Positions 28,258 through 49,481 of a stretch of DNA of 64,000 bases are shown here, piece by piece. Source of the stretch: Algoriphagus lutimaris (lineage in GTDB: Bacteria; Bacteroidota; Bacteroidia; Cytophagales; Cyclobacteriaceae); contig NZ_JAFIDJ010000001.1 of the NCBI RefSeq assembly GCF_017051705.1, positions 1,641,786-1,705,785 on the forward strand, given 5' to 3'. Made by a program: the position numbers and the translations under genes. Positions within the stretch are counted from its first letter, which is position 1; every line of letters begins with the position of its first letter. Below the pieces are notes generated by a model, which was not told the DNA's origin, did no database searches, and saw only the letters and a program-made list of their open reading frames with translations.

Positions 28258-28291
28258 TGCGAAACTAGTTTCGTATACACAATCGTTGTGT
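28258..28291 (+). other. leader recombination site (attI-like)
   Basis: Directly after the recombinase gene lies a perfect 14-bp palindrome (CGAAACTAGTTTCG, 28260-28273), followed by ACACAATCGTTGTGT (28277-28291) with a 6-bp stem. The first cassette starts at GTT, 28285. The decayed copy at 23160 has the same leader and departs from it just after CGTTGT, which places the crossover here. Confidence 0.75.
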
Positions 28292-28300
28292 GCCATGCGA

Positions 28301-28393
28301 AGAAAGCCAACGCACATTCAAGCACATTTGGTTTTTGCCGACACGCAAAGCCAAAGCTGAAAAACCAAAAGAGCTTGAATTTTTGCCAACGCT
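28301..28393. repeat. hairpin repeat, left copy, beside the defence operon
   Basis: Two GCCAACGC words (28306 and 28386 regions) flank an inverted repeat with 20-bp arms (two or three mismatches) and the loop core GCCGACACGCAAAGCCAAA. A related hairpin lies at 36168-36253 after the operon. It belongs to a dispersed family of structured repeats, not to the attC-like sites. Confidence 0.7.
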
Positions 28394-28426
28394 CGACTGA
28401 AACGAATAAAGAAGAATAGACATAAA

Positions 28427-30235
28427 ATGAATTTAGATACTCAAAGTTTACAACCAATTATCAACTTCATCTGGACTGTTGCGGATGACGTATTGATTAA
28501 CAAATACCTTGAAAACCAGTATCAGGACGTGATATTGCCAATGACGGTATTGAGAAGGTTGGACTTGGCACTAGAGCCAACAAAAGACAAAGTGCTTAAA
28601 ACACACAATGAGTTCAAAGGGAAAATTGACAACCTATCAGGACTACTGACAAGCAAAGAACATGGCTCTGGATTGGCGTTTTACAATACTTCGCCTTACA
28701 CAATGAAAAAGTTGCTGGCTGACCCGAAAAATATTGACGCCAACTTTTTGGACTATCTAAATGGCTATTCTGAAAATGTCCAAGACATTATTTCAAAGTT
28801 CAAATTCAGAAACCAATTAGAAACCTTTGAAAATACAGGAATCACTTTTTCCTTGATTGAAAAATTCTGTAGTCCGAAAGTTGAACTACGACCAGAAAAG
28901 ATTTCGCCTATGGCAATGGGCTACATGTTTGAGGACTTAATCAGACGGTTCAACGAAAAGACCAATGCAGCGGCAGGACGACACTTTACACCAAGAGAAA
29001 TCATTGAACTGATGACCCATTTGGTTTACCTGCCCGTAAAAGACAAAATACAGCAAGGAACTTACTTGGTTTATGACCCTTGTGCGGGTTCAGGTGCAAT
29101 GTTGACACAATCTAAACGCTATGCGACCAATCCTGATGGTGAGATAAAATCGAAAGCGACCTTTCACTTGTACGGACAGGAAAATACAGGTGAAATGTAT
29201 GCTGTGTGTAAATCAGATATGTTGCTAAAAAATGAAGACCCTGACAAAATCAAGTACGGCTCTACGCTTAGCGAATATGGCTTTGACCCTGATTTGAAGT
29301 TCAACTTCATGCTGACCAATCCGCCTTATGGAACAAGTTGGAAAGAGGATATTGGAAAACTGAACGTAGGTACAGAAAAGAAAGTCAGCATTGTTGACAG
29401 ACGATTTAATCTACCAATCAAAACCTTTAAAGGTGAGTTAGAAGAAACTTGCTTGACTTCCAGAAGCAATGATGGGCAGCTCATGTTCATGCTTCACATG
29501 CTTTCCAAAATGAAAGACCCAAAAGATGGCGGTAGTCGAATTGCTTCTGTTCAAAATGGTTCCGCCCTATTTACTGGAGATGCTGGAAGCGGAGAAAGCG
29601 GAATTCGTCAATATATTTTAGAAAATGACCTTTTGGAATGCATCATACAGTTACCTAATGACATGTTCTACAATACAGGTATTTCAACTTATATCTGGAT
29701 AATCAGCAATGTGAAAGAAGAACGAAGGAAAGGCAAAGTTCAACTTATCAATGCTTCTTCTGCTGAATTCTACAAGAACATGAGAAAGCCACTTGGTGAC
29801 AAGCGAGTAGAATTGACAAATGACCACATCATTAAAATTCAGGAACTGTACTTCGCCTTTGAAGAGAATGAATACAGCTTAATTTTTGACAATGAAGATT
29901 TTGGTTTCTACCAAATTACTGTACACCAACCTGAAAGAAATGCTAATGGCGAAATAATCAAAGACGCTAAGGGTAAGCCCAAGTCCGATAAGGAGTTGAA
30001 AGACACTGAGAATGTACCCATGAAAGAGGACATTCAAGAATATTTTGAACGTGAGGTTTTACCATTTGCTCCTGATGCTTGGTATGATAAGTCCAAAATG
30101 AAGTTGGGCTATGAAATTTCTTTCACTAAGTATTTCTACAAACACGAACCACTTCGAGATCTTGCTGATATTGAGAATGATATTATGCAGTTGGAAAAAG
30201 AAACAGATGGTTTATTAAAAGAGATTGTGGAATAA
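28427..30235 (+). CDS. hsdM: type I restriction-modification methyltransferase subunit HsdM
   Basis: 602 aa. The N-terminal helical HsdM domain covers residues 1-150. The adenine methylase has the SAM site DPCAGSGAML (about 217-226) and catalytic NPPYG (about 298-302). With HsdS it methylates adenines in a bipartite target. The start is 142 bp after the cassette border. Its stop overlaps the hsdS start (TAATGG). Confidence 0.95.
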   Translation: MNLDTQSLQPIINFIWTVADDVLINKYLENQYQDVILPMTVLRRLDLALEPTKDKVLKTHNEFKGKIDNLSGLLTSKEHGSGLAFYNTSPYTMKKLLADPKNIDANFLDYLNGYSENVQDIISKFKFRNQLETFENTGITFSLIEKFCSPKVELRPEKISPMAMGYMFEDLIRRFNEKTNAAAGRHFTPREIIELMTHLVYLPVKDKIQQGTYLVYDPCAGSGAMLTQSKRYATNPDGEIKSKATFHLYGQENTGEMYAVCKSDMLLKNEDPDKIKYGSTLSEYGFDPDLKFNFMLTNPPYGTSWKEDIGKLNVGTEKKVSIVDRRFNLPIKTFKGELEETCLTSRSNDGQLMFMLHMLSKMKDPKDGGSRIASVQNGSALFTGDAGSGESGIRQYILENDLLECIIQLPNDMFYNTGISTYIWIISNVKEERRKGKVQLINASSAEFYKNMRKPLGDKRVELTNDHIIKIQELYFAFEENEYSLIFDNEDFGFYQITVHQPERNANGEIIKDAKGKPKSDKELKDTENVPMKEDIQEYFEREVLPFAPDAWYDKSKMKLGYEISFTKYFYKHEPLRDLADIENDIMQLEKETDGLLKEIVE

Positions 30236-31629
30236 TGGCAAAGAAGAAATACACAAGCTATAAACCTTCTAAAACGCTTTGGCAAGAGGAAATTCCAAGT
30301 CATTGGCAGGAAACTGACTTGAGAATGATTTATACTGAAAACAAAGTCAAGAACATTGGTTTAGTTGAGCGAAATCTTCTTTCTCTGAGTTATGGTAAAC
30401 TGAAACGCAAGGACATTGACAATGCTACTGGCTTAGTACCCGCTTCATTTGAAGGTTATCAAATAATTGAAGAAGGCTACATTATTCTACGTTTTACCGA
30501 CCTGCAAAATGATAAAAAGAGCTTGAGAGTTGGCTACTGCCCTGAAAGAGGCATTATCACCAATGCCTATGTTGGTATCGTTCCGAATGAAGATATACAT
30601 TCCAAATACTTTTATTACCAACTGCACTTTTTAGACACCATAAAGTATTTCTACAATCTTGGCGGTGGAGTAAGACAGTCATTGAGTTACAAAGAATTTA
30701 AAAGGGAAACACTGCTAATTCCTGAACCAGAAGAACAAATCAAAATTGCAGCTTTTCTCGATTACAAACTCGCCAAAATCAACAGATTTATCCAAAAGAA
30801 AAAGCAACTCATTAAACTACTCAACGAGCAAAAAGCGGCCATTATTAACCAAGCCGTTACCAAAGGCTTAGACCCCAATGCCAAAATGAAAGTTAGTGGC
30901 ATTGAGTGGTTGGGAATGATACCAGAAAAATGGAGGGTTTGGAAGTTTAAATACTTTACAAAAATACTTTCAGGATTTTCTCCTGAACAAGTCAAGTTTT
31001 TAGATGAGGGTGGCGTTGATTATTTCAAGGTTGAGCAATTAAACAATATTGATAATAGATATAGATTGAATGAAAGTACTTGGAGAATTGATGATGCAGA
31101 GTTAAAGAAAATTCATCCTAGTAATATTTTATTGATTCCAAAAAGAGGAGCTGCAATCAGCACAAACAAAATTGCAATTACAACTGATAGATCTGTTTTT
31201 GACACAAATGTAATGGGGCTCAAGCTAAATTCGAAAATGGTAAATATCGATTTTATTGCACTATGGATAAAGAACAGGAATCTTATTGAAATAGCAGATA
31301 CTACCACCATCCCTCAAATCAATAACAAACACATAAACCCACTGCAAATAGCTTTGCCAGAATTGGATGAACAGCAGTCTATTATAGACCACATTATATC
31401 GGAAGTGGATAATATTGAATTAACTATCAGCAAAATAAACCAGGAAATACTCTTGACCCAAGAATACAAAACAGCCCTTATCGCAGAGGCCGTTACTGGA
31501 AAAATTGATGTCAGGGATTTTGAAATTCCAGAATCAATCGAAGATGAGAGTTTTGAAGATTTAGAAGAGGAATTGAGTTTAGCAGCTGAGAATGAAGCGG
31601 ACTATCAAACCGAAGAAATTGAAGAATGA
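30235..31629 (+). CDS. hsdS: type I restriction-modification specificity subunit HsdS
   Basis: 464 aa. It has two target-recognition domains (about residues 15-170 and 215-375), each followed by a conserved helical spacer (PEEQIKIAAFLDYKLAKINR and LDEQQSIIDHIISEVDN). The repeated phrase IP.HW / IPEKWRVWKF opens each half. It determines the DNA half-sites recognised by the complex. Acidic C-terminal tail. The stop overlaps the hsdR start by 4 bp. Confidence 0.95.
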   Translation: MAKKKYTSYKPSKTLWQEEIPSHWQETDLRMIYTENKVKNIGLVERNLLSLSYGKLKRKDIDNATGLVPASFEGYQIIEEGYIILRFTDLQNDKKSLRVGYCPERGIITNAYVGIVPNEDIHSKYFYYQLHFLDTIKYFYNLGGGVRQSLSYKEFKRETLLIPEPEEQIKIAAFLDYKLAKINRFIQKKKQLIKLLNEQKAAIINQAVTKGLDPNAKMKVSGIEWLGMIPEKWRVWKFKYFTKILSGFSPEQVKFLDEGGVDYFKVEQLNNIDNRYRLNESTWRIDDAELKKIHPSNILLIPKRGAAISTNKIAITTDRSVFDTNVMGLKLNSKMVNIDFIALWIKNRNLIEIADTTTIPQINNKHINPLQIALPELDEQQSIIDHIISEVDNIELTISKINQEILLTQEYKTALIAEAVTGKIDVRDFEIPESIEDESFEDLEEELSLAAENEADYQTEEIEE

Positions 31630-34600
31630 GTAAAAGTACAGATACCACAGAAAAGGGCTTAGAAAGTCATATCACCAACTATTTGGTAGAGGCGAATAGG
31701 TACATCCAAAGAGAAAGTACGGATTACAATAATGTCTCCTGTTTAGATGAAGACTTATTGTTTCAATTTTTAGAAACTACCCAACCCAAAGCGGTCGAGA
31801 AGCTCAAGCGGTATCACAAAGAGTTGTATCGCCAAAAAATCATCAAACGTCTGAACGACCGCATTCAAGCCAAAGGGGTAATTGAAGTTTTAAGAAAAGG
31901 CATTGTTGATGGCTTTACAGATACCAAACTCAAGCTGTTTTATGACAAGCCTGTTTCGGCTTACAATGCCAGCGCAAGTGCCTTGTACCAAGCTAATATT
32001 TTTTCGGTCATTCGTCAGGTCTACTACTCTACTAAAAACAAGAATTCCTTGGATATGGTCGTTTTCATTAACGGCTTGCCTGTCATCACTTTTGAGTTAA
32101 AAAATGAACTAACCAAACAGAATGTAAAACACGCCATCAACCAATACAAAAAGGACAGAGACCCTAATGAGGAATTATTTCGCTTGGGGCGTTTGGTTGT
32201 CAATTTTGCTGTTGACACAGAAGAAGTTTGGATGTGTACTCAACTAAAAGGCGAGCATTCGTATTTCTTACCATTTAACAAGGGCAATAGCAATGGAGCT
32301 GGAAATCCACCAAACCGAGGAATAAAAACAGATTATCTCTGGAAAGAAATCCTAACCAAGGATAGCCTAACAGACATCATTCAAAACTTCTCTCAGCTCA
32401 TTACCGAAGAAAAAGAATACACGGACGACAAGGGCAAAAAGCGAACTAAAAAGGAAAAAAAACTCATCTTTCCACGTTACCACCAACTATCCGCAGTAAG
32501 ACAGCTCTTGGCAGATGCACAAGAAAAAGGTTCGGGACAGAAATATTTGATTCAACATTCCGCAGGTTCAGGCAAGTCCAATTCAATCGCTTGGATTTCG
32601 CACCAGTTAATTGGCTTGCACGACAAGTCAGGAAGTAACAACATTTTTGATACGGTTATTGTCGTTACAGACCGTAGAGTGTTGGATGCTCAAATCCGAG
32701 AAAACATCAAGCAATTTCAACAAGTCAGTGGTGTGGTAGAAGCGATTACCGAAGGAAGTAAGCAACTCAAAACTGCCTTGGAAGACGGAAAGAAAATCAT
32801 CATAACCACCATTCAGAAGTTTCCGCACATAGTAGAAGAAATTGGAGAATTGCCTGGAAACAATTTTGGAATTGTCATAGATGAAGCTCACAGCAGTTTG
32901 AGCGGTCAGATGGCCAGGAAACTTAATGAATCTTTATCCAAACTAAATGATGAAGACGAATTGAAATCTGACTTGGAAGATTATGACGAAAATGAAAACA
33001 GTGAAGTAACAGGAGAGGATTTAATCAGGGCTTTAGTGAAGTCAAGAAAACTCTTGCCAAATGCCAGTTATTTTGCTTTTACGGCCACTCCCAAAAACAA
33101 GACTTTAGAACTCTTTGGAGTTCCTTATCAAGAAAGAGATAAAACCAAATTCAGAGCTTTCCATCTCTACTCTATGAAGCAGGCGATTGAAGAAGGCTTC
33201 ATCAAAGATGTATTGCAGAACTACACTACTTATCAAAGCTTCTACGCCTTACTCAAAAAGATTGAGGATGACCCTGAATACGACAAGAAGAAAGCACAAA
33301 AGAAACTCAAAGCTTTTGTAGAAAGCCATGAACACGCCATTAAGAAAAAGTCAAAATTGATGGTTGACCATTTTATGGAAAATGTGATTCAGAAAAAGCG
33401 AATGGGCGGCAAAGCAAAAGCCATGATGGTAACGAGTAGCCGAAAAAATGCTGTGCAATACAAAAAGGCCTTTGATGCTTATTTGAAATCCATTAACAGT
33501 CCTTATAAAGCGGTTGTAGCGTTCTCAGGCGAAATTGACGGAGAAACAGAAGCAAGTTTGAACGGCTTTTCAAGTAGCTCAATACCTTCTGAATTTGAGA
33601 AGAATGAATACCGTTTTCTGCTGGTAGCCAATAAATATCAAACTGGTTTTGACCAGCCTTTACTTCACACTATGTATGTAGATAAAAAACTAGGCGGAGT
33701 AAATGCAGTTCAAACCCTATCAAGGCTTAACAGAAGTCACCCTTTGAAGAAAGACACTTTTGTGCTTGACTTTGCGAACACAGCAGAAGATATGGAAAAT
33801 GCTTTCAAGCCATATTTTGAAAGCACAATTCTTGGAGAAGCTACGGATCCAAACAAGCTGTTTGATTTGCAAGATGCTTTAGACAACTATCAAGTGTATT
33901 CGCGTGAACAAGTCGAAGATTTTTCAAACAAGATTTTAAATAATGTGCCAGTTGACCAGCTACATGCATCATTAGATGAATCGGCTGCAATTTTCAGAGA
34001 CGACTTAGAAGAAGAACAGCAAGCAGATTTCAGGGCAAAAGTCAAAACATACGTTCGCCTTTATATTTTCCTTTCTCAGATTGTACCGTTTGAGAATCCT
34101 TATTTGGAGCGTCTTTACATTTTCCTGAATCACCTACAAAACAAATTTGGTGGTGATACTTCTGTGGATTTAGCAAAAGGAGTTTTGGACAATATTGACA
34201 TGGACAGTTACCGCCTACAATTGGAATCAACAACCAATGTGGTTTTAGAGCAGGGCGAAGACTTGAAGCCTATTCCAACCGATATGAGAGGCGGAGTGAG
34301 TGATCCTGAAATTGACAAACTTTCAAATATCCTTCAAACTTTCAACGACCGCTACGGAACTGAATTTGAAGACGCAGATAAAGTCCGTCAAATGGCGGAA
34401 AATATCGCAACTGATGTAGCTAAGAACAAAGAGTTGATAAGTTCTATTCAACATTCAGACGAACAGAACGCAAGAATCACCAGTGACAAAATTGTAGGAG
34501 AAGAACTGCTAAAGCATATCACTACCAACTTTGACCTGTACAAGTTGTATTCGGACAACAAGGAATTTAAAGAGGACTTCTCGGCAATGATGTTCGGTGT

Positions 34601-34643
34601 TGTGAAAGAATTAATCAACAGAGGAATAAACGCACAGAAGTAA
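31626..34643 (+). CDS. hsdR: type I restriction endonuclease subunit HsdR
   Basis: 1005 aa. The N-terminal nuclease has VVFINGLPVITFELKNE with the ExK part of the PD-(D/E)xK site (about 145-160). The SF2 translocase has HSAGSGKSN (Walker A, about 310), VIDEAHSS (DEAH, about 417), FTATP and QTLSRLNR. A helical C-terminus binds the HsdMS core. It cleaves unmethylated DNA after translocation. It is followed after 3 bp by the Kiwa-like pair, so all five genes form one operon. Confidence 0.95.
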   Translation: MSKSTDTTEKGLESHITNYLVEANRYIQRESTDYNNVSCLDEDLLFQFLETTQPKAVEKLKRYHKELYRQKIIKRLNDRIQAKGVIEVLRKGIVDGFTDTKLKLFYDKPVSAYNASASALYQANIFSVIRQVYYSTKNKNSLDMVVFINGLPVITFELKNELTKQNVKHAINQYKKDRDPNEELFRLGRLVVNFAVDTEEVWMCTQLKGEHSYFLPFNKGNSNGAGNPPNRGIKTDYLWKEILTKDSLTDIIQNFSQLITEEKEYTDDKGKKRTKKEKKLIFPRYHQLSAVRQLLADAQEKGSGQKYLIQHSAGSGKSNSIAWISHQLIGLHDKSGSNNIFDTVIVVTDRRVLDAQIRENIKQFQQVSGVVEAITEGSKQLKTALEDGKKIIITTIQKFPHIVEEIGELPGNNFGIVIDEAHSSLSGQMARKLNESLSKLNDEDELKSDLEDYDENENSEVTGEDLIRALVKSRKLLPNASYFAFTATPKNKTLELFGVPYQERDKTKFRAFHLYSMKQAIEEGFIKDVLQNYTTYQSFYALLKKIEDDPEYDKKKAQKKLKAFVESHEHAIKKKSKLMVDHFMENVIQKKRMGGKAKAMMVTSSRKNAVQYKKAFDAYLKSINSPYKAVVAFSGEIDGETEASLNGFSSSSIPSEFEKNEYRFLLVANKYQTGFDQPLLHTMYVDKKLGGVNAVQTLSRLNRSHPLKKDTFVLDFANTAEDMENAFKPYFESTILGEATDPNKLFDLQDALDNYQVYSREQVEDFSNKILNNVPVDQLHASLDESAAIFRDDLEEEQQADFRAKVKTYVRLYIFLSQIVPFENPYLERLYIFLNHLQNKFGGDTSVDLAKGVLDNIDMDSYRLQLESTTNVVLEQGEDLKPIPTDMRGGVSDPEIDKLSNILQTFNDRYGTEFEDADKVRQMAENIATDVAKNKELISSIQHSDEQNARITSDKIVGEELLKHITTNFDLYKLYSDNKEFKEDFSAMMFGVVKELINRGINAQK

Positions 34644-34646
34644 GAG

Positions 34647-35210
34647 ATGAGACTAACAATTCAAATATTGCTTTTCGTTATTTCATACGTTCCATTGTAC
34701 TTCATTCTGTTTTTTCAAAACCTGAATGACAAACTTTGGACGAAAGCAAATGAATTTATAGGCATCAAAGAAGCCCTGATTTTAAATAAAGTTTCATTGG
34801 CCTTTTTAATATTAATTATCGGTTCAGTTTCGCTTTATTTTATCCTCTACAAAATTGTTATCAAGTCATCCCACGAAGAAATTAAGGTTGTCAGAATTCA
34901 GGACAATCATGCAGAACATCTCTCTTATTTGGCAACCTATATTCTGCCGTTTATAGGTTTAAAATTTGATACTTGGCAAAATATTCTGTCAACTGTGGCA
35001 TTGTTCTACATACTTGGGCACATATACATTAAAACCAACCTCATTCTTACAAATCCAACTCTGACCTTGTTCGGATATCATATTTCAAAGATTGAGAACG
35101 ATAAAGAGAAAATGAAAATCATTATTCATAAACAAGCATTAAAGAAAGGGCAAACAGAGAAGGTGGTTCACTTGACATCTAATGTTTACCTACAAAAGAT
35201 AACAGAATGA
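34647..35210 (+). CDS. kwaA: KwaA-like membrane protein of a Kiwa-type defence system
   Basis: 187 aa with four hydrophobic segments (about 4-22, 51-72, 92-104, 111-133), as in KwaA. The segment YLATYILPFIGL followed by NP.LTLFGYHI resembles the family. KwaA is a membrane protein that senses phage infection at the envelope and acts with KwaB. It is placed 3 bp after hsdR and overlaps kwaB by 4 bp. Family call rests on topology, context and partner, so an HMM match is desirable. Confidence 0.72.
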   Translation: MRLTIQILLFVISYVPLYFILFFQNLNDKLWTKANEFIGIKEALILNKVSLAFLILIIGSVSLYFILYKIVIKSSHEEIKVVRIQDNHAEHLSYLATYILPFIGLKFDTWQNILSTVALFYILGHIYIKTNLILTNPTLTLFGYHISKIENDKEKMKIIIHKQALKKGQTEKVVHLTSNVYLQKITE

Positions 35211-36175
35211 CTAGAGACGATCTATTAAATCACTTAGCATTCCTTGATTTAGAGGAAACACCAACAGTTGAAGTCTATATACTTGACCAGCCTGTTGATT
35301 CTGAAAACGGAATTGACTTAAATATTTACAAAGGCAGAATGCATGAAGATTTGGATCAACAAATCATTGATACATTCTATCCCAAAATAAGAAGTCGCTT
35401 GATAAGACGACAATACGACCTAATTCCATATAATCCAGCACTTACGCCTGATAGAACCGTTAATTGGTTCTATCCAAGTGATGAAGTTCCATTCTATGGT
35501 ATTGTTCTCGAAAAGTTGGCTGAGTTAGATGATGAAAACCCCATCTATTACGACAACACGACATTACCTTATTCGGATATTTGGGCTTTATGGATAAAGC
35601 TTAGTATTCAGGGCAATGATTTCTATTTTTTAAGAAAAATTACGCCTCAGAAAGTTTTAGATACTGGTGGTAAACTTGCCCTCATATTCAGTCAAACAGT
35701 TTTCAGAAAACTTGACCAAAACGTTTTGACCATTGATGGAAACTTTGATGTATTTGCATTTAATGGCACTTTGATTTTTGAGAATAAGACCAATTTTGAA
35801 AAGACTCTCCTTTACGAAGAAGTCAAGAGACAAGTAGCTAATGAAACCTTGGACGACATACAATCAATTGATATCATTGAGAATTTTGACGAACTGAGAG
35901 GGTTTTTAGAAGACGACAAGCATTCGATTAATAAGCTCAACAAATTGAGAGAGAAAGAATACTTCCGACAAAAGACCTTTGCTGACTATCACAGAATAAT
36001 TCGAGACTATGGAGTTCCTGTGACTGTTGATGAAGCAAACGGAAAATTCAATATTTCGAGTAAAGCGGAAGCCAAACAACTGATTAAAGTTCTAAATGAC
36101 GACTACTTGAAATCAGAATTAACGGACTTGAAATATTCAGCGAACAGTAAAGAAGAAACTAATGCCAACGCTTAG
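35207..36175 (+). CDS. kwaB: KwaB-like protein (DUF4868) of a Kiwa-type defence system
   Basis: 322 aa, soluble. The central to C-terminal DUF4868 region shows FYFLRKITPQKVLDTGG, NFDVFAFNGTLIFENKTNFEKTLLYEE and a helical end. KwaB is a DNA-binding partner that stops phage replication or transcription after KwaA signalling in described systems. Translationally coupled to kwaA. Being in the same operon as a full HsdMSR set suggests joint control of two defence layers. Confidence 0.8.
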   Translation: MTRDDLLNHLAFLDLEETPTVEVYILDQPVDSENGIDLNIYKGRMHEDLDQQIIDTFYPKIRSRLIRRQYDLIPYNPALTPDRTVNWFYPSDEVPFYGIVLEKLAELDDENPIYYDNTTLPYSDIWALWIKLSIQGNDFYFLRKITPQKVLDTGGKLALIFSQTVFRKLDQNVLTIDGNFDVFAFNGTLIFENKTNFEKTLLYEEVKRQVANETLDDIQSIDIIENFDELRGFLEDDKHSINKLNKLREKEYFRQKTFADYHRIIRDYGVPVTVDEANGKFNISSKAEAKQLIKVLNDDYLKSELTDLKYSANSKEETNANA

Positions 36176-36253
36176 CATCCATACACATTGGCAAGTCGCT
36201 CAAAGCCGACCCGCAAACCAAAACTTGCCAAAGAGTATGGCTGCCCCAACGCA
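36168..36253. repeat. hairpin repeat, right copy, beside the defence operon
   Basis: GCCAACGC, then an inverted repeat with 17-bp arms (about three mismatches) around GCCGACCCGCAAACCAAAA, then CCAACGC. Arm and loop are related to the hairpin at 28301-28393, in the same orientation, so the operon is bracketed by two direct copies. Confidence 0.7.
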
Positions 36254-36279
36254 CAGACGAACAGAAAAAATAAAGCACA

Positions 36280-41235: not shown

Positions 41236-42627
41236 ATGAACTCAAGCCAATGGGTAATCCTAATTTTCGGAATATTGTATTTTAGCTTCATCCTCTTTAC
41301 CCGAAAAAAAGGAAATTTTGAGGAGTATTCAGTAGCAGGAAGAGGCCTTGGCTTTTTTCTTATTTTTTCTTCGCTTTGTGCTTCTTTTATAGGGCCAGGT
41401 TGGTCTATGGGGTTAGTGAGGGAAGGTTTTTCAAGAGGTATGTTTTTGGCTTATCTTCTTCCGCTTTGTGGATTGGGTTTGATACTGGTTGGCATCTTTT
41501 TAGTTCCCAGAATTAGAAATAAATTCAATGATATATATTCTATTGGAGATTTAGTTGGAGGTATAAAAAGTCACAATCATAAATTTGTTCGACTGGCTAC
41601 TGGAGTTTTCTCTCTTCTTTTTTTCGGGTCTATCACAGTGGCTATGAGTTATGCCGGTGGTGAATTAGTGAATAACGTTTTTGGCTTTTCTAAAATATGG
41701 TCTATAGTAATAGTAACTACCATTGTAATATGCTATTCTTATTTTGGTGGTATTAGGGCTACTATTCAAACAGATTCAATTCAATTTGTTCATTTTATAA
41801 TTCTGATACCCATATTGGCTATTTTGATATTATCTGAGGACCGGTTTATTTGGAAAGATTACATAGAGGCAACTTCTTCCAAGACAACAAGCGCATTTGA
41901 TTCGCATCCAATAATTGGAATCTTCAGTTTCGGAGTATTATGGCTTCTTAGCTCAACAGGCCTTGATTCAGGTGGACTAGGGAGGTTTCTTGCTTCAAAA
42001 AGCAATAAAGTTGCTCGAAATTCGACTGTTGCCGCAGGTGTATTTATGGCCATATGGCTTGTCTTAATGGTTTTTATAGGAAGTACAGGGTATTACTTAT
42101 ATCCTGAACTTGATAATAATGATCAAGTATTACTTCATATTGCTTCAGAACATTTTCCTGGCATACTCTATGGCATTTTCATTATTGCCATGTTAGGTGT
42201 AGTCATGTCGTCTCAGGATACTGTACTAAATGCAGGCAGTATCCTATTTAGTGAAGATATTATAGGCGTGTTGAAGCCAATGACAGAAAAACAAAAACTT
42301 AAAGCTGCGAAACTATATACCCTGTTAATGGGAATAATCTGCATAATTATAGCTAGTTATCTGTCTTCAATTCTTGAAGTGATAATGATTATTACCGAGT
42401 TCTACATTCCAGTTATGATACCAGTAATTGTTTTTTCAATTCTTAAGAAAAATTTTCATTGGCAAGCTGCTTTAATATCTATGTTCGTTGGCTTTATTTC
42501 ATACATCATTTGGAGACAGTTTTTGAGTTTTCTTTTACCTGAGTTAGTAGCGGCTTTAACCCTAAGTACTTTATCATATTTTGTAAGTGATTATATTCTA
42601 GCTAAAAAACTAAGATTAAATGATTAG
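41236..42627 (+). CDS. sodium:solute symporter (SSS family)
   Basis: 463 aa with about twelve to thirteen helices. Signature regions are FEEYSVAGRGLG, SYFGGIRATIQTDSIQF and MSSQDTVLNAGSILFSEDI. Family members co-transport sugars, amino acids or organic acids with Na+. Second gene of cassette 6, paired with the serine hydrolase. Confidence 0.92.
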   Translation: MNSSQWVILIFGILYFSFILFTRKKGNFEEYSVAGRGLGFFLIFSSLCASFIGPGWSMGLVREGFSRGMFLAYLLPLCGLGLILVGIFLVPRIRNKFNDIYSIGDLVGGIKSHNHKFVRLATGVFSLLFFGSITVAMSYAGGELVNNVFGFSKIWSIVIVTTIVICYSYFGGIRATIQTDSIQFVHFIILIPILAILILSEDRFIWKDYIEATSSKTTSAFDSHPIIGIFSFGVLWLLSSTGLDSGGLGRFLASKSNKVARNSTVAAGVFMAIWLVLMVFIGSTGYYLYPELDNNDQVLLHIASEHFPGILYGIFIIAMLGVVMSSQDTVLNAGSILFSEDIIGVLKPMTEKQKLKAAKLYTLLMGIICIIIASYLSSILEVIMIITEFYIPVMIPVIVFSILKKNFHWQAALISMFVGFISYIIWRQFLSFLLPELVAALTLSTLSYFVSDYILAKKLRLND

Positions 42628-42677
42628 TCTCTAGCCTATTAAAAAGGAAATAATATTGAAATGTGAATGAAATAACT

Positions 42678-42879
42678 GTTGCTAACACAGTGTATAAAGC
42701 ATAGCTAATAAGTGTTAAACCCAAAGGTTTACGTATATTTAGAAAGCCCGACAAATTTTTAATTTGGCTTTTAAATAAGAGAAAAATTAAAAACAAAATA
42801 TAAAAATTCGGCTCTGTGTTAATCCGAAAAGTTAGTCTCTTTTTACACACTACGTTTCATACACAAGACCGTTGTGTGC
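42678..42879 (+). repeat. attC-like cassette site 6, longest of the set
   Basis: The left core GTTGCTAAC matches the complement of GTTATCAAC (40015) at 8 of 9 positions. The right core is CCGTTGTGTGC (GTT at 42871). The outer stem pairs GTGTATnAA.C.TAG. A long AT-rich middle part accounts for the length of about 200 bp. Confidence 0.82.
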
Positions 42880-42890
42880 AAGCAAAAACA

Positions 42891-43451
42891 ATGAAAGACT
42901 TCTTAAATAAAATACATTCAATAGATCAAAAAATTCTTGAGGAGTACATTTCTCAATGGACTGAATACAAGGCTCCTAGAAAAACCATAATGACAGCTCC
43001 AGGCGAAACGGAACGATACATGTATTTTGTGCTAGACGGGATTCAAAAATCCTATTATTTAAAGAAGGATAAACAACACGTCATTGCTTTTACCTATCCT
43101 CCCTCGTTTAGCGGAATACCAGAATCCTTTCTTACCCAAACACCATCAAAGTACTTCATAGAGACCATTACAGAAAGTTCATTTCTTCGGATTTCTTTTG
43201 AAAAACATCAACAACTAATGCAAGAATATCGGGAGATAGAAACGCTGTTTAGAAAAGCCACTGAACTCGTATTAATCGGCATGGTACAACGCCACTATGA
43301 GTTAATGGCATTTGATATAAATGAGCGATTTAAATCCTTTGCTCAAAGAAGTCCACACCTGTTCAGTTTAGTTGCTCACAAAGACCTGGCTTCCTACTTG
43401 CGGATCGACTCAACGAACTTCAGCAAGTTGTTCAACACGATTAAGATTTAG
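42891..43451 (+). CDS. Crp/Fnr-family transcriptional regulator
   Basis: 186 aa from the ATG at 42891. The cyclic-nucleotide-binding-like beta roll covers residues 20-125 (YMYFVLDGIQKSYYLKKDKQ). The C-terminal helix-turn-helix is HKDLASYLRIDSTNFSKL. The subgroup common in Bacteroidota lacks obvious cAMP contacts. It precedes a dehalogenase-like gene in cassette 7 and may regulate it. Confidence 0.85.
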   Translation: MKDFLNKIHSIDQKILEEYISQWTEYKAPRKTIMTAPGETERYMYFVLDGIQKSYYLKKDKQHVIAFTYPPSFSGIPESFLTQTPSKYFIETITESSFLRISFEKHQQLMQEYREIETLFRKATELVLIGMVQRHYELMAFDINERFKSFAQRSPHLFSLVAHKDLASYLRIDSTNFSKLFNTIKI

Positions 43452-43516
43452 AATCTTGGTTTATACCAAAAATAAGCCGGGTTAGGTGTCTGACATTTGT
43501 TTAAAATTAATAAACA

Positions 43517-44428
43517 ATGAAACGGGCTATTAACATTTTAATCTTAATCATCATGAGTACAACAGCATTTTCCCAATCATGGGTAGACACATCCCTTTAT
43601 CCATTTGAAAACAAATACCTGCGATTGGAAGCAGGCAACGTGCATTATGTGGATGAAGGAAAAGGTGATATTATTCTCTTCGTTCACGGCACTCCAACAT
43701 GGTCATTCTTATACAGGGATTTTATAAAAGAACTTTCAAAAGAAAATCGTTGCATTGCCTTAGACCACTTAGGGTTTGGCTTATCTGACAAACCGGACTC
43801 AGCCACTGGAACACCTGAATGGCATTCGGACAATCTTAGCGAATTCATCAAAAAACTGGACCTTCAAAACATCACTTTGATTGTGCATGATTTTGGAGGC
43901 CCTATCGGATTAGCAGCGGGCATTAAAAATTCAGAAAGAATTAAAAGAGTTGTATTGTTCAACTCCTGGTTTTGGGCTACTGATCAAAGAAAGGATGCTG
44001 AAAAAATAAATAAGATCGCTAACAGCTGGTTTGGCAAGTTTATGTATCTCAATATGAATTTCTCTGTGAAGGTACTTTTGAAAAAAGGCTTTGCAAACAA
44101 GAAAAATCTATCGAAAGAAGTTCATCAACAGTACATCAATCCATTTCCAGACAAAAACTCCAGAATTCCTTTACTCAATCTTGCCAAAGCGTTGGTCGGT
44201 TCATCGGATTGGTATCAGAAACAATGGGAGCAGCTTGACCTTTTATCAGACAAAGAATGGCTAATTCTATGGGGAACTGAAGACGCATTCATTACAATGG
44301 ACAACTTGGAGAAATGGCAAAAAAGGCTTTCAAATTCTAAAACGAAAGAATTTGATTGTGGTCATTTTGTTCAAGAAGAAGCTACAGAGGCTTCAATCAA
44401 AGAAATAACTAACTTCATGAATAAATAA
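43517..44428 (+). CDS. haloalkane dehalogenase-like alpha/beta hydrolase, exported
   Basis: 303 aa. Signal peptide MKRAINILILIIMSTTAFSQ. The oxyanion region is FVHGTPTWSFLYR with the Trp of halide binding. The nucleophile is Asp (D125 in VHDFGGP), which is typical of haloalkane dehalogenases and not of esterases. The His is H283 in CGHFVQEE. A second halide-binding Trp may be in NSWFW. Exported versions are less usual. It converts halogenated alkanes to alcohols if the assignment is right. Confidence 0.82.
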   Translation: MKRAINILILIIMSTTAFSQSWVDTSLYPFENKYLRLEAGNVHYVDEGKGDIILFVHGTPTWSFLYRDFIKELSKENRCIALDHLGFGLSDKPDSATGTPEWHSDNLSEFIKKLDLQNITLIVHDFGGPIGLAAGIKNSERIKRVVLFNSWFWATDQRKDAEKINKIANSWFGKFMYLNMNFSVKVLLKKGFANKKNLSKEVHQQYINPFPDKNSRIPLLNLAKALVGSSDWYQKQWEQLDLLSDKEWLILWGTEDAFITMDNLEKWQKRLSNSKTKEFDCGHFVQEEATEASIKEITNFMNK

Positions 44429-44433
44429 AGTCA

Positions 44434-44496
44434 ACACACGACAAGGTGTATAGGGCATACCCTGCGGGATACGCACTATACACCAACCATGAGCAA
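44434..44496 (+). repeat. attC-like cassette site 7, compact, altered core
   Basis: The left core ACACACGAC matches the complement of GTTGTGTGC (42871) at 7 of 9. A strong hairpin follows with the 9-bp arms GGTGTATAG/CTATACACC and an inner stem. At the right end GTT is replaced: ACCAACCATGAGC in place of the expected ACCAACGTTGAGC. Confidence 0.65.
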
Positions 44497-44505
44497 TTAT
44501 ACATT

Positions 44506-45573
44506 ATGAAAAAATTTCTATTAATACCCATCCTACTTACTGTACTTTCTTGTGCTGAAACAAAAAATAATAAAGAGACAGATAAATCCTTAATGGACAA
44601 AAGTCACTTTAGACATCTACGTTATTTGCTTAATGTTAAAAATGAAACTGCTAAAAAATATTGGCCTGATTTCGCAGAACAAGACTTTTTTCAAACTGTT
44701 GTATATTATTCCAGAGAAAATACCTACGTACTTAATCCGAGCGACCATATTCTCAATAACTTCGATTATCAAGAGATCGGAAATTTTAACGAGGTAAAAG
44801 TCATCCAACTACCAGATAGTTATACTGACACGACGGCTTTTAAATTTGAGACAAGTGTAGGGATGGACAGTACTGAGCTTCATTACAAGAAGCCGGTTTT
44901 ATATTTTCAAAGTTTTGAACTCTCCAAGAAGTTTCCTGAAGTAGGTGTAAATGATCTGGAGGATTGGTCCTTGATGGTGATACATGAGCTGTTCCATGGC
45001 TATCAATGGTCAAAACCAAAAATGTTTGCGCTAGCAAGAGCCACTTCTATACCTGGCGGACCAGATGAATTTCTTGGTTCATACCGCAGAGATCTTAATT
45101 GGTACAAAGAAAGTGTGAAAAGGGAAAATGATGTACTAAAAGCAATTTGGATTGACGGAGCAGACTTAAATCAGAATCTAAAGCAATTTGACTCTCTACG
45201 TGATCTAAGGATTGAAAGAATTAAACGAGAATACGATGTTGATATTCGAGCGGCTGAAGATTATGAAAACACCATTGAAGGAAACGCACGCTATTTTGAC
45301 TCGTTCACCAGACGATACTTAGCCGAAAACAAACCGGACGTCTCTTTTTTGACCGAGGGAGATAAAAAGGACATTATTGATAGGTTCAATAGCTATAAGG
45401 TTTCAACAGACAGCTTAAATTATAATATCACTAAGGATAGATACTGGTATCCTCTTGGCTTTAACATGTCTATGATCCTGGAAAAATACGATTCCGATTT
45501 TAAGAATAAAATTTATACTGAAAAGGTGACCCTTCGTGATTTATTGGAAGAATTAAAAAGCTCACAACAATAA
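44506..45573 (+). CDS. lipoprotein with HExxH zinc-metallopeptidase motif, new or uncommon family
   Basis: 355 aa from the ATG at 44506; an upstream frame start at 44446 lies in the cassette site. Lipoprotein Cys in TVLSCAE. The motif H160-E-L-F-H164 lies in SLMVIHELFHGYQW, and a downstream Glu E258 (ENTIEGNARYF) is a good candidate for the third zinc ligand, as in gluzincins. No family recognised. Sole gene of cassette 8. Confidence 0.72.
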   Translation: MKKFLLIPILLTVLSCAETKNNKETDKSLMDKSHFRHLRYLLNVKNETAKKYWPDFAEQDFFQTVVYYSRENTYVLNPSDHILNNFDYQEIGNFNEVKVIQLPDSYTDTTAFKFETSVGMDSTELHYKKPVLYFQSFELSKKFPEVGVNDLEDWSLMVIHELFHGYQWSKPKMFALARATSIPGGPDEFLGSYRRDLNWYKESVKRENDVLKAIWIDGADLNQNLKQFDSLRDLRIERIKREYDVDIRAAEDYENTIEGNARYFDSFTRRYLAENKPDVSFLTEGDKKDIIDRFNSYKVSTDSLNYNITKDRYWYPLGFNMSMILEKYDSDFKNKIYTEKVTLRDLLEELKSSQQ

Positions 45574-45616
45574 ATAAACGGTATTAAAATGACCGTTTAT
45601 TAAGATCGTTAGCCTC
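45560..45616 (+). repeat. attC-like cassette site 8, 57 bp
   Basis: The left core GCTCACAAC overlaps the coding end of the metallopeptidase. A 10-bp perfect stem AATAAACGGT/ACCGTTTATT has a 9-nt loop, and the right core is CGTTAGCCTC (GTT at 45608). It is the shortest complete site and keeps only one stem. It may also serve as a terminator. Confidence 0.75.
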
Positions 45617-45636
45617 AATTACTAAAAATAAATTAT

Positions 45637-46893
45637 ATGATTAATAAGCCGCTAATAATACTTATAATCTCACTAATAATGATTATTCATAATTCATTAT
45701 TTTCTCAATCAAAAAAGGACCAACAGTATTTATTTGAAATAGGGCTTGTTGATAGTTTATATTCAAAAACATTAGGTGAATACAGAAAGATCTGGGTACA
45801 TGTACCGGAAAGTGTAACATCTGACAAAAACAAAAAATATCCGGTTCTCATCGTTTTAGATGGAGATACACAGCTACTTAAAATTAGAGCAATTCTGCAG
45901 CAACTTGAAAGGGTTAAAGTACCCGAAATGATTATTATTGGAGTGGATAATAATACTAACAGACTAAGAGATTTAACACCAACAAAACCCCACAATCCAA
46001 GTCCGGCTTCTCCTTTACCTGGTGGTGGGGAGAAATTTACTCAGTTTATTCAAAATGAATTGCTTCCTTATGTAGATAGCAAATATCCTACAACACCTTA
46101 TCGCACCTTTTTTGGACATTCTATTGGGGGTTTACTTGTATTAAATTCATTATTTTTAAATTCCGCTAGTTTTGATAACTATATAGCAATTGAACCCAGT
46201 CTATGGAGGGGTGGCGATTACGATTATTTAAAAGAGTATTCGACTTATTTAAAGAACACTCAATTTTTTCAAAAATCACTTTTTGTAGGAGTTGCTAATA
46301 CGATGTCAAGATTAAATTTAAATCTTGACACGACTTCTGTTTTAAAAGATAACTCAAGAGCAACAGAACATATTCGTCATATTTTGACCTTTGCAAAGAC
46401 AGCAAGTGAAACTAATCAAAATAAACTAAATTTTGATTGGAAGTATTATGACAATGAAGACCATAATAGTGTTGTTCTAAGATCAACCTATGATGCTTTA
46501 TGTTTTCTCTTTAGTTGGTATCCAGAAAATAAAAATGATTTGATGAAAATTAAAAACGCTGATACGCCTGTAGACGAAGCACTCAACATATTTAATAAAC
46601 GAAATAAAGAACTAAGTAGTCATTTTGGGTATACTGTTATGCCGGAAGAACAAGTAATAAATCGACTTGGTTATCAATTATTATCGATGGGTCAGAGTGA
46701 AAAATCATATGCTTTCTTTAAAATGAACATTGACTATTATCCCAAAAGTCCTAATGTATATGATTCTATGGCAGATTATTTTGAATCTGAAAAAGACAAA
46801 GAAAACGCTTTAAAGTATGCAAGAATAGCATATGAAATTAGTGGCGAAGACTACTATAAGGATAGAATAAAAAAGCTTGAATCAAATAAATAA
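45637..46893 (+). CDS. secreted esterase (PF00756-type) with C-terminal TPR-like helices
   Basis: 418 aa. A hydrophobic N-terminal signal ends near LFSQ. The esterase domain (about 35-290) has YPVLIVLDGD for the oxyanion part, S162 in FFGHSIGGLL, and His in NEDHNSVVL. Residues 330-415 form two or three TPR-type helix pairs (INRLGYQLLSMGQSEKSYAF). IroE/Fes-like and acetyl esterases share this fold. Sole gene of cassette 9. Confidence 0.85.
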   Translation: MINKPLIILIISLIMIIHNSLFSQSKKDQQYLFEIGLVDSLYSKTLGEYRKIWVHVPESVTSDKNKKYPVLIVLDGDTQLLKIRAILQQLERVKVPEMIIIGVDNNTNRLRDLTPTKPHNPSPASPLPGGGEKFTQFIQNELLPYVDSKYPTTPYRTFFGHSIGGLLVLNSLFLNSASFDNYIAIEPSLWRGGDYDYLKEYSTYLKNTQFFQKSLFVGVANTMSRLNLNLDTTSVLKDNSRATEHIRHILTFAKTASETNQNKLNFDWKYYDNEDHNSVVLRSTYDALCFLFSWYPENKNDLMKIKNADTPVDEALNIFNKRNKELSSHFGYTVMPEEQVINRLGYQLLSMGQSEKSYAFFKMNIDYYPKSPNVYDSMADYFESEKDKENALKYARIAYEISGEDYYKDRIKKLESNK

Positions 46894-46895
46894 TA

Positions 46896-47033
46896 GAGGC
46901 TAACAACACCTAAGAAAACATGGGTCGGACAGTGGTTCCCGCAAGGTTCGTTCTTCGTGGCCTTCTTTGTTACAGACGAAGAGAAAAGTACTCTGAAAGG
47001 CCCCAAGCTTCTTTACTCCAAGCTGTTATATTC
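46896..47033 (+). repeat. attC-like cassette site 9 (right border provisional)
   Basis: The left core GAGGCTAAC is the exact complement of GTTAGCCTC at 45608. The right core is set at GTTATATTC (47025), because its first six bases are complementary to the left core TATAAC of the next site and the arms pair over AAC...TAAnGAA. The pairing is weaker than in other sites. Confidence 0.6.
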
Positions 47034-47163
47034 CAGAGAAGAGGTAAGGAGAAAACCAAAAAAATCCGACTTGGAAAACCTTCAGAAAACGTACGCTCCA
47101 TTGGCGAGAGCGCTATTTGAGCAGTATAAGATTATTTCACTAGACAATTACTAAAACAAACAC

Positions 47164-49323
47164 ATGCAACAGATCTCTTTTTGGCAAACATGGGTAGTGG
47201 CAGGCTTACTGATGATGTTGCCCTCAATAGTAACAGCACAGGAAGGTGAGCTCACTCTTGATGACCTATTCGCAACGCCAAAATTGACGGGAACAACCCC
47301 GTCCCAACCCACTTGGGCACCAAACAGCAAGCACTTTGCCTTTTCCTGGAGTGAACCAGGAAATCCTAGGCGTGGCCTCTGGGTCTTCACAAGCGATGGG
47401 AAGCAAGTGCGCCTTAATTCCGATACGGCATCCGAGTCAGTGCGCGATATTGCATGGACCGACGCGAACACAATCGTCAGCCTCCGAGGCAACAACTTAT
47501 GGCAGACTTCGCTGAGCCAGGGAAAAGACCTCCAGTTGATGCCCGTCCAGGCAGATGCACATAACCTGTCGATATCGCCAAACGGCAAGCAAGCGGCATA
47601 TATACGGAACGGTGACCTTTGGCTTGCTGACTTCCCTTCCAAACAGAATCGCCAGCTCACCAAGATCGGCATCGCCAGTCTCTCGAGCTTACAGAAGGGG
47701 CGATACAGCCGACCGGAACGTGAAATCGGTCCAGGCATCTGGAGTGGGCCAACTTACAAATGGTCCCCGGATGGCAAAACAATTGCGTTTCATATCGTTG
47801 ACAGACGTGAGATGCGAAAGGTACCGTTCCCGGATTACCTCGCTGATGAAACGAATCCCAACGTAGTACGCAGAAGTTACCCGGGCGATCCAAATGAGAT
47901 TCGTAGGGTTGGACTGCTCGATGTAGAAAGTGGTAACATTATATACCTAGATTTGCCAGATCCGCATGCCAACCAGGTCATCGACTTCAACTGGTCACCA
48001 AGCGGTGCGCTGCTGGTGGATATCGCATCCGACACGGCGGTTGAACGTAAGTTGTTTGTAGTTGCACCCGGAGAAAGCCAACTGCGCGAGATTTGGCGAG
48101 GTGTTCGAGAGAGCCGCATGTATACATCGTTTGGGTCTACCTGGCATCCGGATGGAAAAAAGGTTGTTTTCTTAAGCGATTTGGGTGATCGCTACGGCCT
48201 GTTCACGATCGATGCCTCACCGTCTGGGGATCGTCCGCAGCTCCTGACAGATTCGTCCTACGATGTACTATCCGTTCCAAGTATTGCTGGTGATGCACTG
48301 TTTTATCCAGGCAACGGTGTCAATCCGTACGAACAACACGTGTATCGCCTGAAAATGTCCGGTGGCGATCCAGAGCAGGTGACGGGTCTTTCGGGCCGGA
48401 ACGATGGCTACCCCTCACCGGATGGCCGGCACTTGGTGTTCATGCACAGCAACGACACATCACCGCCCGAGCTTTATGTGGTAAGCAGCGAGGGTGGTGA
48501 CGCTACGCGAGTAACCAACTCGCCCTTGCCCGCCTTTACGGAGCGAACCTGGGCAGCTGCCGAATACGTTAGTTTCCCCAGTCTTGTAGATGAATACACG
48601 CTCCATGCCAGGATTCTGAAACCTACTAACATGCAGCCCGGCAAGAAGTATCCCGTACTGTTTGGGCCCGTGTATTCAAATACAGCGAGGAACCGCTGGG
48701 CAGGTAACTACAGCCTCGTACAGCAGCTGTTGGTCAGGAAGGGATATATTATCGTACAAGTGGATTCACGAGGTAGCGACGGTTATGGCCGAGCATTCCG
48801 AGAAGAGTTTTTGCTGGGTTTTGCGGACCAGGACATTGAGGATTATGCAAGTGCCGTTGCCTACATGGAGTCACTGGATTATGTAGATCCCGATCGCATC
48901 GGGATTTGGGGCAGCAGTTACGGTGGCACACTCTCCGTTTATTCGCTGTTGATGAAGCCGGGCTTATTCCAGGTGGGTGTTGCTGCAGCGGCGGCTGTTG
49001 ACCCGATGTTCTTTGGCACGGACGACGTTGCGATTGTTCGTACCCCACAGACACACCCGGAGATCTTCGAAAGAAAAGCGCTCAACTATGCATCAAATCT
49101 GCAGGACAAACTCCTGTTTATCCATGGTATGCAAGACCATGTGGTGCCCTTCAAGACAGTGGCCGTGTTAGCTGAAGAACTGATTAAACAGGGTAAAGAC
49201 TTCGACTTTGCGTTTGCTCCGGGTGCGACGCATGGATGGAGCCGTGAGCAGAATTATGATCGCTACCTATTTGGAAAGATAATCGAATACTTTGACCGAC
49301 ACCTAGCCGTTCCGTCAAAGTAG
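47164..49323 (+). CDS. S9-family (prolyl oligopeptidase / DPP-like) peptidase, GC-rich, foreign origin
   Basis: 719 aa with a signal peptide ending near residue 25 (VTAQ). The N-terminal WD40-like beta-propeller has repeated SP.GK / WHPDGKKVVFLSD phrases. The C-terminal hydrolase has the nucleophile S585 in WGSSYGGT, Asp in HGMQDHVVPF and His in PGATHGWS. It releases dipeptides or short peptides from peptides in the periplasm. The G+C content and codon choice (many C/G third positions) are far above all neighbours and look gammaproteobacterial. Sole gene of cassette 10. Confidence 0.92.
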   Translation: MQQISFWQTWVVAGLLMMLPSIVTAQEGELTLDDLFATPKLTGTTPSQPTWAPNSKHFAFSWSEPGNPRRGLWVFTSDGKQVRLNSDTASESVRDIAWTDANTIVSLRGNNLWQTSLSQGKDLQLMPVQADAHNLSISPNGKQAAYIRNGDLWLADFPSKQNRQLTKIGIASLSSLQKGRYSRPEREIGPGIWSGPTYKWSPDGKTIAFHIVDRREMRKVPFPDYLADETNPNVVRRSYPGDPNEIRRVGLLDVESGNIIYLDLPDPHANQVIDFNWSPSGALLVDIASDTAVERKLFVVAPGESQLREIWRGVRESRMYTSFGSTWHPDGKKVVFLSDLGDRYGLFTIDASPSGDRPQLLTDSSYDVLSVPSIAGDALFYPGNGVNPYEQHVYRLKMSGGDPEQVTGLSGRNDGYPSPDGRHLVFMHSNDTSPPELYVVSSEGGDATRVTNSPLPAFTERTWAAAEYVSFPSLVDEYTLHARILKPTNMQPGKKYPVLFGPVYSNTARNRWAGNYSLVQQLLVRKGYIIVQVDSRGSDGYGRAFREEFLLGFADQDIEDYASAVAYMESLDYVDPDRIGIWGSSYGGTLSVYSLLMKPGLFQVGVAAAAAVDPMFFGTDDVAIVRTPQTHPEIFERKALNYASNLQDKLLFIHGMQDHVVPFKTVAVLAEELIKQGKDFDFAFAPGATHGWSREQNYDRYLFGKIIEYFDRHLAVPSK

Positions 49324-49361
49324 ATGTTTGTAGGTCTCTTGTTTCTAGGGGTTGAGGAACA

Positions 49362-49481
49362 CCGTATAACAAACGATATACCACATGCCTCACCTGAGTT
49401 ATCTGAAAGTGAAACGCAACAAAGAAACATTACCGATATTTGAAAGCCCAGAGGCATGTGCCATATCTGGACGTTAGCAAA
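49362..49481 (+). repeat. attC-like cassette site 10, last of the array
   Basis: The left core is CCGTATAAC and the right core ACGTTAGC (GTT at 49473). The arms pair over GATATnnCACATGCCTC, with two to three extra bases on the right arm. No TTTGCTAAC-type left core that would pair with GTTAGCAAA is found downstream, so the array ends here. Confidence 0.82.

Follow-up and report, generated by a model that had tools for sequence, protein, structure and literature searches.

A stretch of 64,000 nt from the genome of Algoriphagus lutimaris (RefSeq assembly GCF_017051705.1, contig NZ_JAFIDJ010000001.1, positions 1,641,786 to 1,705,785; the whole stretch is called the window below) very probably holds the proximal part of an integron-like gene-capture platform, one locus of a class-wide system in the Bacteroidia whose likely catalyst is a tyrosine recombinase other than IntI. 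An integron-like cassette array had already been proposed from the letters of the DNA alone (the sequence-only reading), and it is supported by the rule that links the start of a cassette to its end, by the anatomy of the sites and by breaks at C|GTT in related genomes. The array at 28285-49473 is real, but its limits had been drawn too narrowly, as a remnant of a recombinase gene, a second attI-like site and one more cassette site lie upstream (Table 1). As described there, sixteen genes share one strand: 16 open reading frames (ORFs) of >=80 aa are present on the + strand from 28427 to 49323, one nested ORF excluded. In the mechanism that we propose, the recombinase encoded directly upstream would bind the bottom strand of a cassette site folded as a hairpin and cut it at C|GTT, and circular cassettes would be inserted at the attI-like site at 28285, just 3' of the recombinase gene. 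As such a cassette would be opened at its own site, it should begin with a word complementary to its far end.

The starts and ends of the cassettes follow this rule. All five perfect pairs listed by the sequence-only reading are present, namely 28285/36280 (10/10) and 36408/36950, 37076/37654, 37765/38798 and 45608/46896 (9/9 each), and cassette 1, for example, begins with GTTGTGTGCC, which matches its own end GGCACACAAC. Over nine units of the window 58 of 81 bases match the own end, a value reached by 4 of the 362,880 permutations (real order included), although the upstream unit, one of the nine, matches poorly (4/9). We also collected a set of 108 sites from recombinase loci and other loci, and the co-variation of starts and ends holds there as well: 64 distinct consecutive pairs agree on average at 6.5 of 10 positions vs 3.55 for mismatched pairs (n=4026), 30 of the 64 agree at >=8 positions, and none of 10,000 permutations reaches the observed match, also when permuted within arrays.

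The collected sites have a common anatomy. The span from AAC to GTT is 115-124 bp in 65 of the 108 sites and between about 40 and about 190 bp in the others, with a left spacer of 1-4 nt and a longer right spacer of 4-8 nt. Two non-Bacteroidota sites (L096 and L116) were removed before folding and box counts. The match between core boxes reaches about 13 bp, and the eighth position after GTT is matched in just 2% of the pairs, being A at the start in 96 of 98 sites and C at the end in 68 of 98. The classical integron core boxes GTTRRRY and RYYYAAC fit only 12 and 17 of the 98 sites, respectively. The commonest stem mismatch of the top strand is a left A opposite a right C (176 cases vs 19 of the reverse), and folding predictions give the more stable fold to the bottom strand in 85 of 102 sites (top strand: 16 of 102). 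As A-C mismatches turn into G-T pairs on the bottom strand, the choice of the strand could be encoded in this way. The longest ORF is a forward one in 35 of 40 cassettes between 250 and 1500 bp.

In the window, a scan for AAC-stem-GTT over all 64 kb found six matches on the + strand (sites 1, 2, 4 and 5, the short site and the last site of Table 1), every one of them inside the array, and a single match in one shuffled + strand copy. A sequence-heavy covariance model (R1), built from 47 of the 108 sites picked by an AAC-GTT spacing of 118-124 bp, recovers four of the six, misses the short and the last site, adds site 6 and weakly also reports 46902 and the upstream site at 24210. For site 3 the predicted stem is poor and R1 gives no report, yet its sequence recurs in other genomes. 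Of the ten palindromic sites originally counted, eight can be supported within 28285-49473; the one at about 44433 is a left part alone and the one at 46902 has no clear right half. Rfam at its gathering thresholds gave no match within the window. Matching the right core with a DNA pattern (ACRAGACCGTTR) was tried and dropped, as the 4 matches in the genome compare with 5 for the reversed control, owing to the variability of the core.

Conserved sites with variable cassettes had been predicted for related strains, with a fixed cassette order as the opposite outcome. We found the former: 53 of the 98 family genomes (window's own counted) match some part of 36287-49480, many of them only with a single site or a single cassette body; site 2 matches by itself in 19 of the 98, and cassettes of the window are present in varied contexts. 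The body of cassette 3 was found in one other context (L152), that of cassette 4 in two (L150, L151), and the body of the prolyl oligopeptidase cassette occurs elsewhere, too. In relatives the dioxygenase and prolyl oligopeptidase bodies occur without a reported site alongside, and therefore not every homologue sits in a cassette. In genome G037 two arrays behind two recombinase genes have common cassettes in different order, and their copies break at C|GTT: among boundaries identical for >=40 bp rightwards 42 of 51 pairs share just 1 or 3 bp left of GTT, and among those identical leftwards 53 of 58 pairs share just 3-6 bp rightwards. The same two arrays (L046, L047) contain seven identical copies of a 182-bp cassette that is too short for an ordinary gene.

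It had also been stated that no transposase or phage gene explains the region. This statement does not stand, as an ORF for a tyrosine recombinase of 453 aa directly precedes the array and ends 33 bp before cassette 1. The protein consists of a HARP-like extension (residues ~1-155), a SAM-like core-binding domain (177-253) and a catalytic domain (275-438), and the residues R304, K329, H398, R401, H424 and Y433, which we take to be the catalytic residues of tyrosine recombinases, are invariant across 12 aligned members. Residues 1-155 are predicted to form two similar alpha/beta repeats (mean predicted local distance difference test score 82.7, predicted template modelling score 0.50). Among PDB sequences a profile of the extension matches the SMARCAL1 HARP domain (4o66, E 0.0005) and no other at E<=1, and with Pfam HARP (PF07443) 8 of 13 members have a match at E<=0.05 (4.8e-8 for the best). 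A fold search with the whole protein shows no HARP entry among the rows shown; only residues 171-433 are covered by at least a fifth of its rows, and the extension lies outside this stretch. In SMARCAL1 the HARP domain is part of a eukaryotic annealing helicase. Directly behind the recombinase gene, an ssb gene begins after 38-56 bp in 9 of the 18 closest relatives examined, and Pfam SSB was confirmed in all three of the products tested; the window has no ssb right after the recombinase gene. The HARP-like extension, together with the adjoining single-stranded DNA-binding protein in some close relatives, might help to capture or hold single-stranded hairpins. By its recombinase, the closest named relative is Aquiflexum (Cyclobacteriaceae, Bacteroidota).

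The most serious alternative, which we nevertheless consider unlikely, is that the platform is a canonical integron and that its IntI has simply diverged, with the insertion lost or shortened. The top NCBIfam match of the recombinase is indeed the integron integrase model TIGR02249 (219.8 bits, below the cut-off of 265; the XerA model gives 210.9 bits against a cut-off of 220), the closest PDB sequence and the best Foldseek match are both VchIntIA (2a3v), a C-terminal SPLD motif is common to the window family and the IntI rows, and according to the sections of PMC8138268 covered here the insertion is not fully conserved in an integron-like subgroup. Window-family recombinases may already sit unnamed in this subgroup, as far as these sections show. 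However, the two stretches aligned with VchIntIA skip its residues 189-245, 30 family loci place the catalytic lysine loop 57-62 aa before HxxRH, vs 99-101 aa in the 21 measurable canonical IntI (18 IntI of the phylum were not measurable and stand outside this comparison), and VIA-align places archaeal Xer proteins above VchIntIA. The window recombinase is without the IntI-specific insertion of about 40 residues. A phylogenetic tree with 106 rows unites the 24 canonical IntI, of which 12 come from Bacteroidota, in one clade on a long stem (support 100 in the Shimodaira-Hasegawa-like approximate likelihood-ratio test, SH-aLRT), and the window recombinase clusters outside it with 53 other rows, of which all with a named source are Bacteroidota (support 92). 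The tree was made by a quick method with SH-aLRT support only and includes 22 of 30 family rows and 12 of 29 IntI of the phylum, rows with stops (L074, L103, L112, L117, L122, L132) or <250 aa being excluded. The tree also contains 13 rows of related short recombinases from Pseudomonadota that lack the IntI insertion and group together (support 100: L097, L098, L101, L102, L104, L107, L111, L113, L120, L124, L127, L129, L130); this group presumably resembles IS91-associated recombinases. Three very long relatives (L089, L091, L092) have open frames of 676-720 aa, and four sites lie downstream of that in L092.

Recombinase and sites occur together. A scan of genome contigs matched 590 stretches, and for the 80 recombinase loci listed from it a simple scan found 45 forward sites downstream (in 16 loci), one upstream and two on the other strand; named isolates with sites belong to Seonamhaeicola, Winogradskyella, Rufibacter, Algoriphagus, Flavobacterium and Algibacter. 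Shuffled sequence gave 8 sites in 40 strands without the core filter and 1 in 72 with it (36 of the 80 loci). Around ten family recombinases R1 has 38 matches in 8 loci, all downstream and in the same orientation, and around ten canonical IntI loci of Bacteroidota none; at the locus level we therefore discarded an assignment of the sites to the phylum's canonical IntI. At E<=1e-4 sites are present in at least 130 of 194 genomes of the order and in at least 150 of 296 in the phylum, lower bounds because the scored candidates were capped at 17 or 11 per genome and because the genome-wide list lacks the site at 42684 found in the locus search. In the class (Bacteroidia, judging by its named relatives; 73 genomes, delimited on the assumption that the listing of genomes without a match is sorted by kinship) at least 55 genomes have R1-type sites; canonical IntI (E<=1e-50) is found in none of these 55 and in one of the 73. 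In 39 non-Bacteroidota genomes, Vibrio atypicus included, R1 has no match; this set is without a known-positive genome. An attI-like palindrome (score >=8) stands behind 9 of 36 recombinase-gene pieces vs 23 of 3000 control pieces.

Alternatively, the sites might be the substrate of a different recombinase, such as the chromosomal Xer pair, with the neighboring gene being incidental; we judge this to be less likely still. Within the order, 72 of the 77 genomes with a close recombinase (E<=1e-40, a line set after inspecting the search table) have a site, compared with 58 of the 117 others (Fisher p 1.8e-11). The latter 58 genomes favor this alternative, whereas the association itself, the position of the arrays downstream of the recombinase gene on one strand and the attI-like sites behind that gene, one of which starts the tet(X3) unit described below, speak against it. 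Ordinary intergenic palindromic repeats (repetitive extragenic palindromic elements or terminators) without any recombination are very improbable: hairpins between genes are common and the sites do lie between genes, but neither the start/end rule nor reordered cassette copies that break at one base pair, the rarity of sites in shuffled sequence or the silence in the 39 genomes outside the phylum fit them.

Several observations weigh against the platform with its own recombinase. Two of the ten family loci have no R1 site, 5 of the 77 genomes with a close recombinase have none at E<=1e-4, and the 58 genomes just mentioned carry sites without it; another recombinase could act on these sites or they could be remnants. 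In the other classes of the phylum R1 sites are equally common in genomes with canonical IntI (36/85) and without (59/138). A Bacteroidota recombinase with a site and a palindrome behind it (L071) sits outside the family clade, and the attI-like palindrome is absent from 27 of the 36 pieces behind recombinase genes. The window protein reaches just 14.1 bits on PF07443 (cut-off 25), and the HARP match is limited to the second repeat of the extension. Finally, 34 of the 64 site pairs match at fewer than 8 of 10 positions, which undetected sites in between could produce.

A link to antibiotic resistance came from plasmids. Searching plasmid proteins with the window recombinase (E<=1e-40) gave 224 records, 51 of them at 60-80% identity, and among the matches listed 15 (14 from Acinetobacter, one from an uncultured bacterium) are at 68.7% over window residues 211-453. 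Gene positions are identical in the A. indicus plasmid L233 and in pHH1107 of an uncultured bacterium (L234). In L233 the truncated recombinase TnpF precedes, in this order, the palindrome TATACGCCATTTGGCGTATA, a spacer, GTTATGTGCC, tet(X3), CGGCTACTAAC and an apparent left site arm without a right half; the end of this unit fits its start at just 7 of 10 positions. R1 does not match this arm in the plasmids (best 10 bits, E 0.93), a silence that the missing half would explain and that gives no support either. A same-class genome (L250, G807:C2:38000-49000) has ten R1 sites in 11 kb and a gene that reaches 861.7 bits (cut-off 750) with the Tet(X) model. Here tet(X) is an intact cassette: it begins at C|GTTATGTGCC after a cassette site, and its end GGCACATAAC precedes a full site. 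Identity between the two tet(X) units is 86% and sets in exactly at the G of GTT; they do not align leftwards, where L250 has an attC-like and L233 an attI-like site. Other tet(X)-like genes (L251, L252, L253; 67-69% identical) have no R1 site nearby. On the simplest reading, tet(X) would have travelled as a cassette and entered an attI of the Bacteroidia system before ISCR2 spread the block.

Taken together, we think it probable that the Bacteroidia possess an integron class of their own, with a non-IntI recombinase lineage partly fused to a HARP-like DNA-annealing domain, sites in about three quarters of the sampled class genomes, phage-defence cassettes among the cargo and a platform that was the source of the tet(X) cassette in Acinetobacter plasmids. 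Like IntI integrons such as the Vibrio superintegrons, it combines a tyrosine recombinase beside an attI-like site with one-strand arrays of mostly single-gene cassettes, whose hairpin sites end in AAC...GTT, whose starts are complementary to their own ends and which break at C|GTT; the integron features used for comparison come in part from the sections of PMC9024848 and PMC9668308 covered here. Unlike them, it has a recombinase without the IntI insertion that falls outside the IntI clade, bears the HARP-like extension and is oriented towards the array; the box is longer and rarely fits GTTRRRY, and R1 is silent in Vibrio atypicus. By most comparative tests the system thus appears integron-like, and it would fall outside an IntI-based definition of integrons by its recombinase and by the classical core boxes.

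Other known systems are similar in part. XerA, XerC and XerD have the same simple core fold, in which the IntI insertion is missing, and VIA-align places archaeal Xer proteins at the top of the structural matches, but dif sites are short duplex Xer sites, and the window-type sites are, unlike those of Xer/dif and pdif modules, long hairpins in cassette arrays. SMARCAL1 is similar to the recombinase extension by profile. In the ISCR2-tpnF(xerD)-tet(X3) units of Acinetobacter, tpnF encodes a truncated window-family recombinase; the parts of PMC8635130, PMC7722449 and PMC12523817 covered describe tpnF or xerD beside tet(X3) in an ISCR2-mediated transposition unit and contain no link to integrons or attC. 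The complete integron of Salinibacter ruber M1 (PMC9024848, as far as covered) and the IntI of other classes have the phylum and the integron anatomy in common with the window, but these IntI are canonical and had no R1 site in the ten loci examined, the Salinibacter locus not being among them. Canonical IntI above the TIGR02249 cut-off occurs in 84 of the 296 genomes of the phylum, nearly all in other classes. The suggestion that an integron of this type may be undescribed in this phylum is therefore too wide for the phylum; it holds for the class and for an integron of a different kind, with a recombinase that is present and is not IntI.

Complete integrons are called rare in Bacteroidetes in the covered text of PMC9024848, with integrase-only elements earlier and then one in Salinibacter ruber. 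PMC9668308, PMC8618304 and PMC2426708 name Bacteroidota or Bacteroidetes/Chlorobi among integron groups without detail, and PMC7370490 is without mention of Bacteroidetes, each in the portions covered. Searches of an open-access library, which did not extend to preprints and most subscription journals, and the covered parts of these papers yielded no account of such a system. Integron detection relies on the IntI-specific domain (PMC9668308, same portion), and if our reading is true the rarity in Bacteroidetes may partly be due to this. A large gene-capture system in a major phylum would then have been overlooked, cassette capture at folded sites would be possible without the IntI insertion, and hairpin reading by such recombinases would become testable by comparison. 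It would also give tet(X) an origin as a movable cassette and open a route to finding other cargo.

Table 1: Features of the platform in the window (positions in nt of the window; R1, covariance model of the sites).
Feature	Position	Strand	Details
Degraded 3' remnant of second recombinase copy	22880..23135	+	PF00589 match G000:C1:1664723-1664884, DNA read
Second attI-like site	23150..23190	+	GTT 23187; closely similar to site at 28285
attC-like site, upstream remnant array	24203..24336	+	AAC 24210, GTT 24327; R1 29.1 bits, genome-wide E 0.015
Tyrosine recombinase	26890..28251	+	453 aa
attI-like site	28256..28288	+	palindrome TATGCGAAACTAGTTTCGTATA, 7-nt spacer, GTTG; cassette 1 start 28285
Cassette 1	28285..36407	+	type I restriction-modification (hsdM, hsdS, hsdR); KwaA, KwaB (Kiwa-like)
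Hairpin h1	28294..28402	+	terminal in cassette 1
Hairpin h2	36156..36278	+	terminal in cassette 1
attC-like site 1	36278..36417	+	AAC 36287, GTT 36408; R1 112.1 bits
Cassette 2	36408..37075	+	183-aa protein, no Pfam match
attC-like site 2	36947..37085	+	AAC 36956, GTT 37076; R1 85.3 bits
Cassette 3	37076..37764	+	180-aa protein, no Pfam match
attC-like site 3	37651..37774	+	AAC 37660, GTT 37765; weak stem, no R1 report
Cassette 4	37765..38921	+	intradiol dioxygenase-like protein
attC-like site 4	38795..38931	+	AAC 38804, GTT 38922; R1 63.5 bits
Cassette 5	38922..40014	+	ThuA-like protein
attC-like site 5	39885..40024	+	AAC 39894, GTT 40015; R1 81.3 bits
Cassette 6	40015..42870	+	protein with Pfam Beta-lactamase domain; sodium:solute symporter
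attC-like site 6	42675..42880	+	AAC 42684, GTT 42871; R1 49.5 bits; missing from genome-wide R1 list
Cassette 7	42871..45607	+	cNMP-binding domain protein; haloalkane dehalogenase-like alpha/beta hydrolase; 375-aa protein without Pfam match
Short attC-like site	45557..45617	+	AAC 45566, GTT 45608; no R1 report
Last unit(s)	45608..49472	+	esterase-like gene, weak site near 46902-47034, prolyl oligopeptidase-like gene
Last attC-like site	49359..49482	+	AAC 49368, GTT 49473; no R1 report

The partial left arm near 44433 lies within cassette 7. Upstream of the array, the segment 22880-24336 looks like the remnant of a platform, with a recombinase 3' end, an attI-like site, a cassette for a CPBP (Rce1-like) protease and one weak site, and the decayed recombinase together with the closely similar attI-like site therefore points to an older platform copy in the locus. 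Elsewhere in the 4.7-Mb assembly a second cluster of four R1 sites was found (G000:C8:658229-680850), and none of the five PF00589 matches of the genome is near it.

The two hairpins of cassette 1 recur as a pair. We considered them as further attC sites and rejected this, as CCAACGC at both ends is direct and not inverted. With h1 at the start and h2 at the end, the pair flanks unrelated restriction or other defence genes in seven loci with examined payload (the window, L158, L225, L227, L228, L230 and L232). The payloads are type I restriction-modification (RM) with Kiwa, a PDC-S37/Hhe-like helicase-nuclease, type II RM, type IIG RM, a type I-like methyltransferase with S, type I RM and type II RM. 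In at least five loci h1 is located within about 40 bp downstream of a GTT box, and in L226 the order of h1 and h2 is reversed.

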